Made by a program: the position numbers and the translations under genes. The notes under the pieces were generated by a model, which saw nothing but the letters and a program-made list of their open reading frames with translations, made no database searches and was not told the DNA's origin. A stretch of 52,387 bases of DNA from a virus: positions 1-52,387 of the IMG/VR virus record IMGVR_UViG_3300021378_000034, one strand, 5' to 3'. Each line of letters starts with the position of its first letter. Position 1 is the stretch's first letter. Shown in pieces: positions 30,921-47,949 of this stretch.

Positions 30921-31195
30921 TGGCTGTAAGAAAAACAAAGAAGGGTGCTTCGCTAAAGCGCTGGTTTAAAGAAAAGTGGGTTGATGTAAGAACCGGTAAA
31001 GCTTGTGGCCGTAAAAAAGGCGATGGCAGAGGCGTACCTTACTGCAGACCAAGCAAAAGAGTATCAAGCAAAACACCAAAAACATCCAGCGAAATGTCTT
31101 CATCCGAAAAGGCTAAAAAAATCAGAGAAAAGAAAAGCTTAGGACAACCAAAAGGAAAACCAAGAAGGGTCAAATCAGTTAAAAGAAAAAAATAA
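30920..31195 (+). CDS. Small basic protein of the KRWFKEKWVD type (DUF5872-like)
   Basis: A 91-residue, very basic protein. Residues 10-52 hold LKRWFKEKWVDVRTG, then CGRKKGDGRG and PYCRPSKRVSSKTPKT. This is the family pattern I know as DUF5872-like, found in phages and giant viruses. The rest is a Lys/Ser-rich tail. The two Cys (C30, C43) and many Lys suggest nucleic acid or virion association. It forms a tight run with the 43-residue gene before it and the holin-like gene after it, with one-base overlaps on both sides. The function is unproven. Confidence 0.65.
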   Translation: MAVRKTKKGASLKRWFKEKWVDVRTGKACGRKKGDGRGVPYCRPSKRVSSKTPKTSSEMSSSEKAKKIREKKSLGQPKGKPRRVKSVKRKK

Positions 31196-31359
31196 TGAAT
31201 ACTCAAGATTTAAAAGTATTGATGTTAAATACATCGGCATTTACACTATCAATGACTTCAGTTGAAGATATACTTAAGATAGTTTTACTATTGGTTTCAA
31301 TAGGATTCACAGTTCAAAGATGGTATGAAGTACGTAAAAGGAATAAAGACAATAAGTAG
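31195..31359 (+). CDS. Holin-like one-helix membrane protein
   Basis: A 54-residue protein. Its ATG overlaps the previous stop (TAATG). Residues 25-41 (EDILKIVLLLVSIGFTV) form a single membrane span, preceded by an uncharged N-terminus and followed by a basic tail (QRWYEVRKRNKDNK). This is the form of small class II/III-type holins and of T7 17.5-like holins. It is the first gene of a region that ends with the endolysin, so a holin role is reasonable. The next gene starts 35 bases inside it. A structural membrane peptide is the alternative. Confidence 0.5.
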   Translation: MNTQDLKVLMLNTSAFTLSMTSVEDILKIVLLLVSIGFTVQRWYEVRKRNKDNK

Positions 31360-31789
31360 TTTGCTATTTTGCATTGTGATATCTGCACAAGATATTAAAA
31401 TAGACAATATAAAAAACTCAATTCAAACAGGTCCGTTGGTTAACAACAGGGATGTTGGTTTTGGGTTAAAAAACATTTTAGAAGAATTAGTTCAAGACTT
31501 GGATTATAATTTAAATGACAAGGCTGTTGATGCTTTGACTGTTGAATTACTTTATTTTGACGTAAAAAGAACACAATCAAATATTGCGTTGTATAGCAAA
31601 TCGTCAAGTCAAACAGAAATTATTGCATTAGCAAAATACAAAAAGAAAAAAGTAAAAGTAAAAGGCACAGCAAAAGACATTACAACTTCTTTAATTCTAT
31701 TAAATGAGCAAGGACAGTTCACACAAAACAGTGTGAGCGTTGCATTAAAAAAACTTTCAGAAAACATTATTAAGAAATTAAAACTATGA
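31325..31789 (+). CDS. Exported periplasmic protein of unknown function
   Basis: A 154-residue protein with a signal peptide (residues 1-21, hydrophobic SSLLFCIVIS) and predicted cleavage before Gln22 (SA|Q). The mature part has a repeated beta/alpha layout: VDALTVELLYFDVKRTQ, then the strand KKVKVKGTAKDITTSLILLN, and a final amphipathic helix (ALKKLSENIIKKLKL). This order loosely resembles YajG- or CsgG-like envelope proteins, but no family motif is certain. It overlaps the holin-like gene by 35 bases and the next gene by 4 (ATGA). It probably belongs to the envelope cassette that follows. Its role is unknown. Confidence 0.55.
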   Translation: MKYVKGIKTISSLLFCIVISAQDIKIDNIKNSIQTGPLVNNRDVGFGLKNILEELVQDLDYNLNDKAVDALTVELLYFDVKRTQSNIALYSKSSSQTEIIALAKYKKKKVKVKGTAKDITTSLILLNEQGQFTQNSVSVALKKLSENIIKKLKL

Positions 31790-33408
31790 AAAAACTATTG
31801 TTTTTATTATTACCATTATTCTGTTTAGCGCAAGATTTAAAACTTGATCACAGTTATACTAACGCTGAGGATTTTAAAGTAGGGGATACTATAACAATAA
31901 AGTTCAATACAATACAGGTAACGAATAATGCTGATCCTAACTTGTATATGTTTGATTACGAGTACAATAATAAATTGTTACAAAAAATTACACATCGGTT
32001 TAAAGTTGCGGATAACGAAGCTAACACGAACGCACAAACCTCATTAACGCATTGGGATGGTTTTAAGTTTAAAATTTTAAGTACTTACGATGAAGATAAT
32101 CTTTCTGCGCAATATTTACATGGTTGGCAAAACCGAACACAAGTACAAGGAGACACCAATTCTTATCCTACGGATAATGACTGGTCTGTTGAAAGAATAA
32201 CCATCCAAGACGGTGTTGGAATTACATATAACAATACATTAGTTGAAGTTGATTTTAAAATTAAAGATAAAATAAATACAAATTACAGTAATTATAATAA
32301 TGTAACGCATCTTAACTGGATGAAGGCACATGACAATTCTAATAACACAGCCTATGATGTTGATGCAATGCAACAAAAAATTACTTTAGCTGGTGTTGAA
32401 GGTGGTGACGCCGGGAGTGTCACTATAAATTTAAAAACAGAAAACGATAAACCAACGCATTATAAATATAACATATTAAGTAATAATAGTAGTGTAGCGA
32501 GTGGTAATTTTGACGCTAATTCACAGGCTATAGTTACAGGTTTAGAAAACGACGTTAAATATACTATTGATATAACAGTCGATAATGATGCTGCTAGCGA
32601 TTGGTTAGATGATGTTGTAACTGTTACGGATGTTTTTTTAGTATTTAAAGAAGCTATTAAAGCTGGCAGTAGTCCAGGTGGGCAAGCTAATACTTTTACA
32701 CATAGTATACAATTTTTATTAGGCGAAGTTAATAACAGCGGAAATGTAGATTTTGATGACTCTTACATCTTGCTGAGTCATATAATGAATGAAAACGTTA
32801 GTGAATGGTTTACAAGCTCTACAAACGGAGCTAAAAATGTTTGGGGCGAAAAAAATCAATATGGGTATTCCACAAATGATTATTACTTTGGACAAAGAAA
32901 AGATTTTACTCCTACTGATTCTAATAAGGTTTTTGATTTTGGTCATGGACTTATTGGAGATGTAGATTTTTCACATTCATTTGAACCAATAGTACAAAGC
33001 GAGAACAGTGGTGTCGCAAGAGGTGTTGTTCAGAATTCATCTGAAAATTTAAATTTAGATATTTCCACAAGTTTAGTTAACGATAAAGTTGAATTAGTAG
33101 TTGAGCTCGAAAAAGAAGATTTAGCGGGCATGCAATTTGTAATTCAATTTGACGATGCTTTATTAGAATTTGAAGAAGTTCAATTTGATACCGGCAACTT
33201 ATTAACTAATTTTGCAACAGAGCGAAACAATAAATTATATTTTGGTAGTCTAAGTGTTGAGAACCAAGAAAATATAAAACCTGGTAAACCGTATAAGATT
33301 ATATTTAATCCTAAACAAACAATAACTAATACATCCGGTTTAATTTATTTTCAAACCACAGACGCTGTAACAGAAGAAGGAACTAAAGTAATTTTAAAAA
33401 TACAATAA
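31786..33408 (+). CDS. Exported protein with dockerin-like and cohesin-like domains
   Basis: A 540-residue protein. The signal peptide ends at LA|Q16. Residues about 17-195 are beta-rich (cohesin-like strands, FDYEYNNKLL). Residues about 205-285 resemble a fibronectin-type sandwich. Around 311-333 is LLGEVNNSGNVDFDDSYILL, close to a dockerin calcium-binding repeat, with a second half-repeat (GLIGDVDFSHS) near 388. Residues 430-540 (LAGMQFVIQFDDALLEF, then KPYKIIFNP) follow the cohesin pattern. Dockerin-cohesin pairs tether secreted proteins to surfaces. Here both types appear in one chain. Overlap: the ATG overlaps the previous stop, and the stop overlaps the next ATG. An adhesion or surface-anchoring role is inferred. 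Confidence 0.58.
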   Translation: MKKLLFLLLPLFCLAQDLKLDHSYTNAEDFKVGDTITIKFNTIQVTNNADPNLYMFDYEYNNKLLQKITHRFKVADNEANTNAQTSLTHWDGFKFKILSTYDEDNLSAQYLHGWQNRTQVQGDTNSYPTDNDWSVERITIQDGVGITYNNTLVEVDFKIKDKINTNYSNYNNVTHLNWMKAHDNSNNTAYDVDAMQQKITLAGVEGGDAGSVTINLKTENDKPTHYKYNILSNNSSVASGNFDANSQAIVTGLENDVKYTIDITVDNDAASDWLDDVVTVTDVFLVFKEAIKAGSSPGGQANTFTHSIQFLLGEVNNSGNVDFDDSYILLSHIMNENVSEWFTSSTNGAKNVWGEKNQYGYSTNDYYFGQRKDFTPTDSNKVFDFGHGLIGDVDFSHSFEPIVQSENSGVARGVVQNSSENLNLDISTSLVNDKVELVVELEKEDLAGMQFVIQFDDALLEFEEVQFDTGNLLTNFATERNNKLYFGSLSVENQENIKPGKPYKIIFNPKQTITNTSGLIYFQTTDAVTEEGTKVILKIQ

Positions 33409-33767
33409 TGAAAAAACTATTTATACTATTATTATTTATAAGCTGTTCAGAAACTGTATATATTGAAAGACCTGTACAAGAAGTACCAGAATCTTTATTT
33501 ATGCAAGAGACTATAGGGCTTAAATTAGAAAGTTATATAGTGCAAGACAAGGTCAGAATAAACACAAAGTTACCATCAGATGGTAAATACAGAATTAAGA
33601 TATTAGATTTTTCAAATAAAATAATAAACCAAGAAATAATAACCGGAAGAGAGGGTGATAATATATTAAACATATACGTTAACTCACTGCCCGTAAGTTC
33701 TTATACAGTTGAATTGTATACTAATACAAATAGCTTTATAGGTAGACAAACATTTTCAATGAAATAA
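33408..33767 (+). CDS. Lipoprotein resembling a type IX secretion C-terminal sorting domain
   Basis: A 119-residue protein. The signal MKKLFILLLFISC has a lipobox ending at Cys13, so it is likely lipidated. The last 70 residues (VRINTKLPSDGKYRIKILD, then NILNIYVNSLPVSSYTVELY) match the pattern of type A sorting domains of the Bacteroidota T9SS: a strand, a (G)xYxIxIxD strand, a turn, then a L.L..LPxxxYxVxL strand. A free-standing domain behind a lipid anchor is unusual, because such domains normally end large secreted proteins. It might compete with, or dock to, host T9SS parts, or simply be an outer-membrane Ig-like lipoprotein. Context: part of the envelope cassette. Confidence 0.5.
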   Translation: MKKLFILLLFISCSETVYIERPVQEVPESLFMQETIGLKLESYIVQDKVRINTKLPSDGKYRIKILDFSNKIINQEIITGREGDNILNIYVNSLPVSSYTVELYTNTNSFIGRQTFSMK

Positions 33768-33768
33768 T

Positions 33769-33999
33769 ATGAAAGAATTAAAGAACCAAATAATAACAGC
33801 AATAGGATTAATTATAACTGCTGGGGCGGCTTTAATCATAGCTAATATGGAGGCTATATTTAGTCCTGAAGATGATTCACCACCGCCAATAATGGAGCAA
33901 ACAATAACAATACCACCAAGTATTGTAAAGGATACTTTGGTTATAACTAAAACAGTTGTACAAAAACCAAAGAAAGAAGAAAGAGAAATAGATTGGTAA
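33769..33999 (+). CDS. Small one-helix membrane protein, Pro-rich tail
   Basis: A 76-residue protein. Residues 7-26 (QIITAIGLIITAGAALIIAN) form one membrane helix. The rest is an acidic then Pro/Ile-rich extracytoplasmic or cytoplasmic tail (DDSPPPIMEQTITIPPS) ending in basic residues. There is no lipobox or signal cleavage site. It lies one base after the preceding lipoprotein gene and one base before the CsgG-like gene, so it is co-transcribed. It resembles i-spanin-like or envelope-spanning accessory proteins only in topology. The function is unknown. Confidence 0.5.
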   Translation: MKELKNQIITAIGLIITAGAALIIANMEAIFSPEDDSPPPIMEQTITIPPSIVKDTLVITKTVVQKPKKEEREIDW

Positions 34000-34000
34000 C

Positions 34001-34720
34001 ATGAAAAAATTTATACTATGTGCGATATTTGTATCGGCTGTGGCTTCTGCTCATAGCCAAGTAATTGGAAAAACAACCACCGAAGATTATGTCGGCAGCT
34101 TTGAATCAAGAGAATCTATATGGAGTGTACCAGAATATAATGGCGACCCTGTATCTGTAGCCTTGCTTAACATTGGTGTTACTGAGGAAATATTAAATCA
34201 GTATCCTGAATTAGGTGATTATAGAGTTGGATTAGGTTTAACTAATATAACTGTAGCGTTCTTAGATGAAACGTTTCGTTTTGAATTTGTAGAAACAAGA
34301 GACGAAATAAAAGATAGAATGATTAAGCAATTTAAAGCAAGCGAAAAAGGTTTCACTGCTAATGTTATTAACCCTATAGGTAAAATAGTATTGGCTAAAT
34401 ACTTTTGTTATATTGAGGTATACGATTTTAGTATATCGGAAGATGAAACTATTAATTTAAAAGATGGTATTAAAAATAAACTTGTAACACGATTAGGTTT
34501 GCAAGTTAAGCTTGTTGATTCAGAGTCTGGATTATATATGACGGGATCTGGTTTAGGTAAAGCTACAACGACAAGAGAATTAACTTTACTCAACAATGAA
34601 AATTTGGAAGATGTAAAATTTAACCAATCATCAATTGGAACATCGACTAAAAAAGCTTTAGAAACTGCGGTTGCTAAAGTGGTTAAACGAATGATAAGAA
34701 AAAAGATATTTGATCATTAA
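34001..34720 (+). CDS. CsgG-like outer-membrane secretion protein
   Basis: A 239-residue protein with a signal peptide ending AHS|Q20, not a lipobox. Segments follow the CsgG order: VALLNIGV near residue 51; YRVGLGLTNITVAFLDE; FEFVETRDEIKDRM; ANVINPIGKIVLAKYFCYIEV, like the (G)A(D)Y(V)(I)xG strand; LGLQVKLVDSESGLYMTGSG, like LRLVDVxTGEV; and a final amphipathic helix (TSTKKALETAVAKVVKRMI). CsgG forms a nonameric pore that exports curli subunits and is normally a lipoprotein; the missing lipid Cys is notable. CsgG-like proteins also serve other envelope roles (HfaB, LpoB relatives). No curli subunit gene (CsgA/B) or CsgE/F is recognised beside it. The fold is moderately sure; the export role is inferred. 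Confidence 0.6.
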   Translation: MKKFILCAIFVSAVASAHSQVIGKTTTEDYVGSFESRESIWSVPEYNGDPVSVALLNIGVTEEILNQYPELGDYRVGLGLTNITVAFLDETFRFEFVETRDEIKDRMIKQFKASEKGFTANVINPIGKIVLAKYFCYIEVYDFSISEDETINLKDGIKNKLVTRLGLQVKLVDSESGLYMTGSGLGKATTTRELTLLNNENLEDVKFNQSSIGTSTKKALETAVAKVVKRMIRKKIFDH

Positions 34721-36204
34721 TGAAAAAAATAATAATATTATTATTATTTTCCTCAAGTATATATTCTCAAACATTAGTACAAGCATTTGCAGATCGATGC
34801 ACTGGAGAGATTAAAACAGTTTCTATAAAGATGGAAGGATACACTACGGTATCTTTTTATAATAGAACAAAAACTTTTACTGCTAATGATTTTTACAGCG
34901 GTACATTAAGAACTTGGATGGAGCAAACGTATGCTTGGTGGTACGCGCTCTCAGCTTGCTCAACAGCACAAACTACACAAACTACAACACAAACATCCAC
35001 TTCAAATAGCAATAGTGGATCTGATTCTGGTGGTGGAGATTCCGGTGGAGATTCCGGTGGTGATACCGGTGGTGATACCGGTGGTGATACTGGTGGAGAC
35101 TCTGGTGGAGACTCTGGTGGAGATTCAGATGGTGGTGGTGGTGACGACGGAGGAGGTGATTCAGATGACGGCGGAGGTGATAGCGATGATGGAGGCGGTG
35201 ATAGTGATGATGATGGTGGAGGTGATAGTGATGACGATGGTGGAGGTGATAGTGATGACGATGGTGGTGGAGATGATGATGACGGTGGTGATGATTCTGA
35301 TGATTCTGATGATTCTGATGATTCTGATGATTCAGAAGAGGAAAAAGAAGAAGAGCAAGAGGAAGAAGAAAAAGAAGAGGAGAAAGAAGAGGAGAAAGAA
35401 GAGGAAGAGGAAGAAGAGGAGGAGTCTGAAGAAGAGTCTGAGGAGGAAGAGGAGGAAGAAGAAGAGAAAGAAAAGAAAAAGAAAAACACAAACCCAATAA
35501 TAATATCAGCCAACGTCATGCGTATGTCTGGATTAGACGGTGCTGCAAATCAAGTAATTGGCTTAGGCTTTGCACAATCATCTATGAACGGGGAATTTAA
35601 TTATTCCGCTAATATGATGATATGGGACAACTTAAAACAGTTTAGTTTAAGTGGATCTAGAGGTCATACATTTCATAGATACGATAAAAAAGTACCTGTA
35701 ATAATTAGAGAAGATGGTAAAGATTATGTGTTTGGTCATTATTATGATAAAGGTAGTATTGCCAACGTACAAACATTATCCGCTGGATTAATGTATATGT
35801 ATGGTGTTTATAATGCTTCTTTTGGTATTAGTAATGTATATATTGGACAAAAAGAAAATAAATGGAAAGGATTTGTAGGAGGTGTATCTGCTTCAGCAAA
35901 TGTATTATATAGCCAAGGCGATTGGAATGTAATGCCTGCATTTGTATTTTTTGGTACTAAGCCATTCCCTTTTAAACGTTTTACTGTATCACCTATGTTA
36001 GCTACCGCTTTAACACCAGTGAGTTACAGTACATTGGATAATGGTTTTGTTTTTAATGAGCATGCATTATTTGTAGGAGGTGCAAACTTTGATTTCGCTA
36101 TAACTAAAACATTTAGAATGAATTTAGGTTTTAATGTAGCTAAAAGCACAGATGCATTTCCATTAACATATTCAATAACAATTGGCGGTAAATTTAAATT
36201 ATAA
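34720..36204 (+). CDS. Outer-membrane beta-barrel protein with acidic low-complexity stalk
   Basis: A 494-residue protein. Signal peptide with cleavage YS|Q17. Residues 17-82 form a small Cys-containing domain. Residues about 83-100 are Thr/Ser/Gln linker. Residues about 100-206 are Asp/Gly/Ser repeats (DSGGD, then DSDDDGGG). Residues about 207-258 are Glu/Lys-rich. From about 262 to 494 the chain shows alternating hydrophobic strands and ends in Leu after ITIGGKFKL, fitting a transmembrane barrel. The Asp-rich repeats look like calcium-binding or flexible spacers. The gene overlaps the CsgG-like stop by one base and ends two bases before the endolysin. The tandem DNA repeats suggest length variation by slippage. 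The barrel is inferred from strand pattern. Confidence 0.6.
   Translation: MKKIIILLLFSSSIYSQTLVQAFADRCTGEIKTVSIKMEGYTTVSFYNRTKTFTANDFYSGTLRTWMEQTYAWWYALSACSTAQTTQTTTQTSTSNSNSGSDSGGGDSGGDSGGDTGGDTGGDTGGDSGGDSGGDSDGGGGDDGGGDSDDGGGDSDDGGGDSDDDGGGDSDDDGGGDSDDDGGGDDDDGGDDSDDSDDSDDSDDSEEEKEEEQEEEEKEEEKEEEKEEEEEEEEESEEESEEEEEEEEEKEKKKKNTNPIIISANVMRMSGLDGAANQVIGLGFAQSSMNGEFNYSANMMIWDNLKQFSLSGSRGHTFHRYDKKVPVIIREDGKDYVFGHYYDKGSIANVQTLSAGLMYMYGVYNASFGISNVYIGQKENKWKGFVGGVSASANVLYSQGDWNVMPAFVFFGTKPFPFKRFTVSPMLATALTPVSYSTLDNGFVFNEHALFVGGANFDFAITKTFRMNLGFNVAKSTDAFPLTYSITIGGKFKL
35025..35485 (+). repeat. Tandem low-complexity DNA repeats inside the barrel gene
   Basis: Nested short tandem repeats: 12-mers of GGTGATACCGGT and GGTGGAGACTCT type (about 35,035-35,125), three copies of a 24-mer GGTGATAGTGATGAxGATGGTGGx at 35,197-35,268, and four exact copies of GATGATTCT at 35,290-35,325, followed by a GAAGAGGAG-type purine tract to about 35,485. 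All unit lengths are multiples of three, so slippage would change stalk length without changing frame. Confidence 0.85.
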
Positions 36205-36206
36205 AA

Positions 36207-36665
36207 ATGATTAGTGAACACATTAGTAAAAAAGAAGCAACATTCAGCGCGACAGCAACAAGAAAAGGAATAGATAATATACCAGGCGAATACGAGCTAC
36301 AAAATATGGAACTCATTGCTGAAAAAGTATTTGAACCATTAAGAAAAGCTGTAAATGGCCCAATAAAAATTAATTCATTTTTTCGCTCAGAAGAATTGAA
36401 TAAAGCAATTGGAGGAAGCAGTCGATCGCAACATTGCCAAGGGCGCGCAATGGATTTAGATGACGTGTATGGGTATATGTCTAATAAAGATATGTACAAT
36501 TATATAAAAAATAATTTAGATTTTGATCAAATGATTTGGGAATTTGGCACAGAAGATAACCCTGATTGGGTTCACGTTAGTTATGTAGATGTTGATTCAA
36601 ATAGGCGGCGTTGTTTGCAAGCTTATAAAGATGAAAACAATAAAACTTGTTATAAAGAAATATAA
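36207..36665 (+). CDS. Endolysin, peptidase M15 type
   Basis: A 152-residue enzyme. SQHCQGRAMDLDD at residues 74-86 carries the zinc ligands H76 and D83, and DWVHVSYV holds H123, the third ligand. This is the M15 (D-Ala-D-Ala carboxypeptidase or L-Ala-D-Glu endopeptidase) pattern SxHxxGxAxD...WxH. It cleaves the peptide cross-links of peptidoglycan. There is no signal sequence, so release probably depends on a holin, and a holin-like gene opens this region at 31,195. It is the last gene of the plus-strand block and ends at the bidirectional terminator. Confidence 0.85.
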   Translation: MISEHISKKEATFSATATRKGIDNIPGEYELQNMELIAEKVFEPLRKAVNGPIKINSFFRSEELNKAIGGSSRSQHCQGRAMDLDDVYGYMSNKDMYNYIKNNLDFDQMIWEFGTEDNPDWVHVSYVDVDSNRRRCLQAYKDENNKTCYKEI

Positions 36666-47492: not shown

Positions 47493-47606
47493 TTATTTAT
47501 TAGCTTTCGTCGCTCTTCTCGGCTTTTGAAATTTCTTAATTTTTGTTGCAATGTTAAAAACATTTGCATTCACTAAATGCTTTGCATTTTTTGTTGTTTT
47601 ACTCAT
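47493..47606 (-). CDS. Small basic peptide
   Basis: A 37-residue, Lys/Arg-rich peptide (MSKTTKNAKHLVNANVFNIA at its start, RATKANK at its end). Its start is 8 bases inside the 3' end of the 3D-domain gene in another frame, typical of the tight packing in this region. There is no membrane span. It could bind nucleic acid. The function is unknown and a chance frame cannot be excluded. Confidence 0.4.
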   Translation of the reverse strand: MSKTTKNAKHLVNANVFNIATKIKKFQKPRRATKANK

Positions 47607-47949
47607 TTAATTCAATTTTAATGTTAGTCCATTTTCCCATAGTGCCGACATTTACAAGGAAATCAATACGTTTAGTAAAACGTTTATTCATTCTGTCTTG
47701 TACAGTCCAGTCACCATCAAATTCTCTGCTTATGCCTTCTATGCAGACGCTAGCTCCAAACGTGTAACCCAACTTTTCAAGGTCTCTTGAAACTGCAATC
47801 CAGCGATGCCCAGCAGGGTTATCAGGATTAATTTGTTTCATGGAGGCAGTGACGAATGGAGTGCTGTCTGTCTGTTCAGGTACTGCGTGGTAAACCGTAG
47901 CGGTAACCCACGTCTTCAGGAATAGTGTTAAAAGTATAAGGTGTTTCAT
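47599..47949 (-). CDS. Exported 3D-domain (double-psi barrel) protein
   Basis: A 116-residue protein. A hydrophobic N-terminus (MKHLILLTLFLKTW) looks like a signal peptide. Residues 15-115 fit the 3D domain: TATVYHAVPEQTDSTP (D28), GHRWIAVSRDL, then GDWTVQDRMNKRFTKRIDFL (D85, D96). This domain occurs in lytic transglycosylase (MltA) C-termini and in resuscitation factors that act on peptidoglycan. A lone exported 3D protein in the early region is unusual and suggests cell-wall remodelling during infection. The start lies 74 bases inside the next upstream gene. Confidence 0.58.
   Translation of the reverse strand: MKHLILLTLFLKTWVTATVYHAVPEQTDSTPFVTASMKQINPDNPAGHRWIAVSRDLEKLGYTFGASVCIEGISREFDGDWTVQDRMNKRFTKRIDFLVNVGTMGKWTNIKIELNE

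Follow-up and report, generated by a model that had tools for sequence, protein, structure and literature searches.

The virus record IMGVR_UViG_3300021378_000034 of IMG/VR, whose 52,387 nucleotides are referred to here as the window, belongs to a podovirus-type phage with terminase and portal proteins matching PHROG head-packaging families. The terminase shares 63% identity with that of Podoviridae ctfjg026 and 44% with that of Flavobacterium phage elemo. At positions 31325–36204 of the plus strand lies a cassette of six coupled genes (g1 to g6), flanked by a holin-like gene and the gene of an M15 endolysin. An earlier note, made by a model from the letters of the window, had described six consecutive open reading frames in this interval, and all of them were recovered where it had placed them. 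The holin-like gene and g1 overlap by 35 bases, g1 and g2 by 4, and both g2/g3 and g5/g6 by 1; gaps of 1 base separate g3 from g4 and g4 from g5, and a gap of 2 bases separates g6 from the M15 gene. These junctions agree with the close spacing (overlaps or at most 2 bases) reported before, from which we infer that g1–g6 form one translation unit. A simple rule for signal peptides and membrane anchors, used to call export-type N-termini, flagged precisely g1–g6 among 28 plus-strand genes and one of 17 minus-strand genes, as expected from the claim that all six products are exported or membrane proteins. The ratio of nonsynonymous to synonymous substitution rates (dN/dS) of the cassette genes ranged from 0.01 to 0.37 (g5: 0.01–0.08), indicating purifying selection that is strongest on g5. 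NCBIfam yielded nothing useful. The position downstream of the virion genes and on the same strand would also suit virion proteins, that is, tail or neck components mistaken for envelope proteins. Apart from low-complexity noise, none of the six window proteins matched a PHROG tail or neck family, which left the envelope assignment of the earlier note standing; together with the Sec-type N-termini and the lysis genes on both sides, this makes a virion origin highly improbable.

The cassette is phage-owned and widespread among aquatic phages of Bacteroidota, and no bacterial owner of the set turned up. A scan with g5 detected 31 viral loci, and scans with g5 alignments detected 358 and then at least 562 viral contigs encoding a relative. 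The carrier phages differ widely in size. Arrangements were counted in the 126 viral loci with sufficient flank: g2, g4, g5 and g6 are present in all of them and g1 in 120. Two gene orders, each found in 56 of the 126 loci, were distinguished. Type I has the order 1-2-3-4-5-6, and type II the order 2-4-5-6-1, in which g3 is absent and g2 carries a C-terminal domain (CTD) of the type IX secretion system (T9SS). The gene order recurs in over 100 further viral loci, which answers the search proposed in the earlier note and overturns its view that such a complete set is unknown in phages, since the set is common in phages of Bacteroidota and comparable CsgG-based phage systems have been published. 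Among cultured phages, only the Flavobacterium immuto phages turned up in g5 searches, and no plasmid did. CTD and cohesin domains typically occur in cellular proteins, which would suit a host operon captured recently, and the earlier note had considered such a capture for the case that the order occurred in hosts only. The genome-collection scan, with its two exact and therefore narrow peptide patterns, gave a single cellular match, and the profile search gave one match each in 395 and 398 Bacteroidota genomes (approximately 790 sampled), which fell on the same contig as in the scan. This 254-kb contig (C291 of G001, locus L036) is part of a Bacteroidetes metagenome-assembled genome and carries both the cassette and a terminase gene. 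A search for phage sheath proteins in that genome was negative, and the terminase search was positive. Because the terminase is encoded on the contig itself, it is most likely a large phage binned into the assembly. With this one terminase-bearing contig set against more than 500 viral contigs, recent capture from a host is hardly credible. One cassette copy (L031) has broken g2 and g5 reading frames, which may reflect a decaying copy or a sequencing error.

g2 (31786–33408, plus strand) encodes a putative exported scaffold or adhesin with a C-terminal cohesin domain. The Cohesin family (PF00963) was matched over its gathering score (25.2 versus 24.1 bits, 2e-5), and eight of 13 diverse g2 members matched it at E ≤ 1, the best at 5.3e-9. 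A cohesin-like N-terminal region, an EF-hand-type loop and a dockerin-like GDxDxSHS motif were recognized as well, and the g2 profile gave weak matches to a scaffoldin cohesin (0.015) and the ScaH dockerin (0.049) in the PDB. Dockerin_1 (PF00404) did not reach its gathering score, with no match in the window g2 and one of 0.067 in a relative, so that the cohesin half of the dockerin/cohesin character first ascribed to g2 was supported at the family level and the dockerin half was not. In type II loci, which account for about half of the phages, g2 is fused to the T9SS CTD; Cohesin and Por_Secre_tail are both matched over the cut-off in g2 of L036 and L032, and Por_Secre_tail in that of L078. 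The following gene, g3 (33408–33767, plus strand), encodes a lipoprotein with a free-standing domain resembling this CTD. The cysteine in the lipobox region is present in 74 of 74 members. Directly, the window g3 matched the T9SS CTD family (PF18962) below threshold (16.6 bits with a gathering score of 27, E 0.0095), but a profile comparison (hhalign) with the CTDs fused to g2 elsewhere gave an E-value of 6e-9 and a probability of 96%, and 19 of 27 g3 members matched Por_Secre_tail at E ≤ 0.1. The CTD-like lipoprotein proposed earlier thus holds by profile comparison and not by the Pfam threshold, and g3 is homologous to the CTD fused to g2 in other phages. g3 is absent from the loci in which g2 carries a CTD. 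Because the domain is fused to g2 in type II and stands separately as g3 in type I, the two proteins appear to be functionally tied.

The best-conserved member, g5 (34001–34720, plus strand), encodes an exported protein with a predicted CsgG fold. With 22 close sequences, AlphaFold2 gave too poor a structure model (predicted local distance difference test, pLDDT, 50); with an alignment of 56 sequences, the pLDDT rose to 73. The eight best matches of this model in the VIA search were all CsgG (Z 11.0–12.8, 156–172 residues aligned, root mean square deviation 3.4–4.9). Next came related folds, those of PelC and LptE among them, with Z values of about 9–11. Foldseek agreed on the CsgG fold and returned a phage CsgG as the best viral match. 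At the sequence level, Pfam CsgG/HfaB (PF03783) matched neither g5 nor 22 members, and hhalign of the g5 family against 13 real CsgG proteins was not significant (P 0.09). The CsgG-like assignment of the earlier note is therefore upheld for the fold but not for the sequence. The two membrane beta hairpins that build the CsgG pore were not found in g5, as judged from the sequence without an oligomer model: 34% of the residues of the first hairpin stretch are charged and none is aromatic, compared with 15% and 11% charged residues in the CsgG counterparts, and the second lacks the FRF-type aromatics of CsgG. Because the profile link to CsgG is missing and the hairpin stretches are charged and poor in aromatics, we take g5 for a ring or adaptor with a CsgG fold rather than for a CsgG pore. 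The small exported protein encoded by g1 (31325–31789, plus strand) resembles YajG/Lipoprotein_16 below the cut-off (Pfam 0.0016). It shares a short motif with the g5 family (hhalign, P 2.5e-4, 27 columns). A kinship of g1 to CsgG was considered and rejected, the profile comparison not being significant.

The product of g6 (34720–36204, plus strand) is predicted to combine an N-terminal head, likely closed by a disulfide, with a long low-complexity linker, which is acidic in the window, and an outer-membrane barrel. The cysteine pair of the head is present in 149 of 154 full-length members, and the family alignment displays a strand-rich C-terminal region with the end motif GxKhxL/F. Since no Pfam barrel family matched g6, the barrel is a prediction from these features. 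Adjacency and co-inheritance suggest that g6 is the natural partner of g5. PDB sequence searches with the profiles of g5, g1 and g6 gave chance matches only. In L066, L068, L139 and L036, the cassette contains or adjoins another g6-like barrel, which lacks the head and linker otherwise seen. The Bacteroidota CsgG proteins of L167, L194 and L195 carry a C-terminal barrel-like extension of approximately 165–190 residues on the same chain. If g5 and g6 were a split version of such a protein, the cassette could be a diverged true curli (type VIII) system, in line with the CsgG fold of g5. The missing sequence kinship of g5 to CsgG speaks against this, as do the comparison of the g6 barrel with the CsgG extension, which was not significant (P 0.07), and the lack of Pfam matches to the CsgA, CsgB, CsgE and CsgF families in the six window proteins; we regard a curli origin as very unlikely.

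The inheritance of the genes shows that the cassette evolves as a unit and independently of its neighbours. In 18 loci, the distance correlations within the cassette were 0.54–0.96, being tightest among g1, g5 and g6 (0.89–0.96), and those between cassette genes and the neighbouring ribonucleotide reductase (RNR) gene were 0.21–0.40. Distance correlations were also computed on 66 loci. The upstream border in the window is the holin-like gene (31195–31359, plus strand), which probably is not a member of the cassette. It encodes a peptide of 54 amino acids with one transmembrane helix, as described before; its family match is weak (phrog_1350, E 0.13). The downstream border, the M15 peptidase endolysin (36207–36665, plus strand), was readily confirmed (Peptidase_M15_3, 1.4e-15; phrog_894 endolysin, 2.6e-29). 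Relatives without the cassette (e.g., L262, L246, L248 and L209) share the upstream giant protein of the virion region and the downstream RNR gene. In L262, the holin-like homologue directly precedes the M15 gene, and in the cassette-free phage elemo, the homologue gp36 directly overlaps the M15 gene gp35. Because cassette-free relatives have the same flanks and the holin-like gene of elemo overlaps the M15 gene, the cassette represents an accessory element inserted between these two genes.

This insertion site, shared by the window and L001–L010, raises the main rival explanation, a lysis module that opens or weakens the outer membrane late in infection in place of spanins. g3, as an outer-membrane lipoprotein, and g4, with its inner-membrane anchor and periplasmic tail, would bridge the envelope, and a g5/g6 pore would trigger or complete lysis. 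g4 (33769–33999, plus strand) encodes an inner-membrane protein with one helix (KD19 peak 2.23) and a periplasmic tail. This tail ends in tryptophan in each of the 156 members found, which is unusually strict conservation for a C-terminus. The genes of the g3 lipoprotein and the g4 inner-membrane anchor, which might be compared with the two subunits of a spanin pair, are adjacent, but g3 is CTD-like and absent in type II loci. Four cassettes (L022, L048, L058 and L062) contain an endolysin of the Amidase_2 family along with small membrane proteins, and a lysis-timing role has been proposed for the CsgGF proteins of a methylophage (PMC9004378). In Flavobacterium phage immuto, however, the cassette is located approximately 28–30 kb away from the chitinase and holin genes, and within flanks of 5–8 kb an RNR gene was present near 46 of the 126 loci, an M15 gene near 13 and an amidase gene near 12. 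Because of this distance in immuto and the frequency of RNR, the position in the lysis region, to which the earlier note had tied the cassette, is a trait of the lineage of the window phage and not of the cassette as such. In addition, lysis would offer no evident use for the cohesin, lectin, CTD and nuclease parts, and cassette-free relatives cope with the holin-like and M15 genes. A function in lysis is therefore unlikely, although it is a serious competitor. In immuto, the small membrane protein tmB adjoins the chitinase and holin and may be a lysis protein.

Many cassettes are accompanied by further modules. L028 and L032 have g2 relatives with a Lectin_C domain. Including these two, g2 relatives with C-type lectin modules or resembling them were noted in L028, L032, L071, L077 and L078 and are candidates for docked binding modules. 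A gene for a secreted Endonuclease_NS nuclease lies near 31 of the 126 cassettes and is absent from the cassette of the window. EndoG-type nucleases with a signal peptide are encoded between g4 and g5 (L050, L051, L052, L054 and L055) or after g6 (L077), and might serve as an exclusion weapon or a nucleic-acid scavenger. A secreted nuclease and an outer-membrane channel feeding the RNR pathway of the phage would make the cassette a device for scavenging nutrients or nucleic acids, in accordance with the frequent nuclease and RNR genes nearby. Yet most cassettes, that of the window included, have no nuclease, the set has no inner-membrane transporter, and the cohesin, lectin and CTD parts would be left unexplained, so we judge scavenging to be quite unlikely.

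The explanation we favour, with fair confidence, is that of a phage-owned unit which exports a modular protein and displays it on the outside of infected Bacteroidota cells. In the window phage, expression would probably be late because of the position between the holin-like gene and the endolysin. g5 may form a periplasmic ring or adaptor beneath the barrel of g6, assisted by g1, and g4 would link this platform to the inner membrane via its tail with the invariant terminal tryptophan. g2 would be set on the outer face via a CTD, either its own or that provided by g3, probably with the aid of the T9SS of the host. There, the cohesin and dockerin-like parts of g2 might link up head to tail or bind partners that bear lectins. 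Several points weigh against such a display unit. The g2 of the window has no CTD of its own and hence no evident route across the outer membrane, its dockerin assignment is one of motifs, and the confidence of the g5 model is moderate. Export, the g5/g6 ring and the cohesin–dockerin contact are deduced, and cassettes adjoin lysis genes often enough for the lysis explanation to survive. The purpose of surface display would most likely be the remodelling of the infected cell against other phages, the holding of neighbouring cells ("sibling capture"), or both. A more far-reaching version is put forward tentatively: a phage-specific surface organelle made of a cohesin/dockerin chain, T9SS-type anchoring, a platform of CsgG fold and barrel, and interchangeable lectins and nucleases, which might act against rival phages or gather new hosts.

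The closest known systems are the curli/type VIII modules of pelagiphages and the methylophage Melnitz (PMC7029224, PMC9599517, PMC9004378), for which, in the case of the pelagiphages, the retention of neighbouring cells has been proposed (PMC7029224). Like the cassette, these are multi-gene modules of conserved order with a CsgG-fold protein, which occur across phage families and were not found in hosts. Unlike the cassette, they have Csg parts that can be recognized as such, namely CsgG, CsgF and repeats of the curlin type, and they cluster with Alphaproteobacteria. The cassette, in contrast, has no member of a Csg sequence family, comprises a cohesin/dockerin-like displayed protein with a T9SS domain and belongs to phages of Bacteroidota. 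It is best read as a functional counterpart of the phage curli systems that uses other protein families and occurs in other hosts. With T9SS cargo of the type A CTD (PF18962), it shares the terminal CTD of type II g2 and the homologous g3, although the window encodes the CTD-like domain as a lipoprotein of its own and the cassette showed no genes of the T9SS machinery. Cellulosome scaffolds (PF00963/PF00404) resemble it in the cohesin over the cut-off, the dockerin-like calcium-loop motifs and the lectin-bearing relatives, and differ in that the cassette is phage-borne, contains no cellulosome enzymes and gives no match to the dockerin family over its cut-off. The combination of a CsgG-type fold with an outer-membrane barrel is known from PelC/PelB and LptE/LptD, with fold matches at Z values of about 9–10, and the presumed g5–g6 pair would correspond to these. 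The Bacteroidota CsgG with its extension also joins the two; there, both parts reside on one chain instead of two genes, and neither is significantly related to its cassette counterpart by sequence.

No published description of the cassette was found in the open-access literature. If the display function is correct, very many viruses of a main aquatic bacterial phylum carry a surface-remodelling system whose parts are all phage-owned, and T9SS-type cargo and cellulosome-type modules join the phage repertoire. It would also bear on the role of CsgG-type genes in marine phages, and the cultured Flavobacterium phage immuto makes the cassette accessible to experiments. The unannotated phage record OR851715.1 (1499 bases, "Salmonella phage S.Kent 1-2-1") codes for a protein with 95.7% identity to CsgG of E. 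coli and is apparently a piece of host DNA deposited under a phage name. In the window, the sole signal-peptide-like start outside the cassette among the genes checked belongs to a gene on the minus strand at positions 47599–47949.
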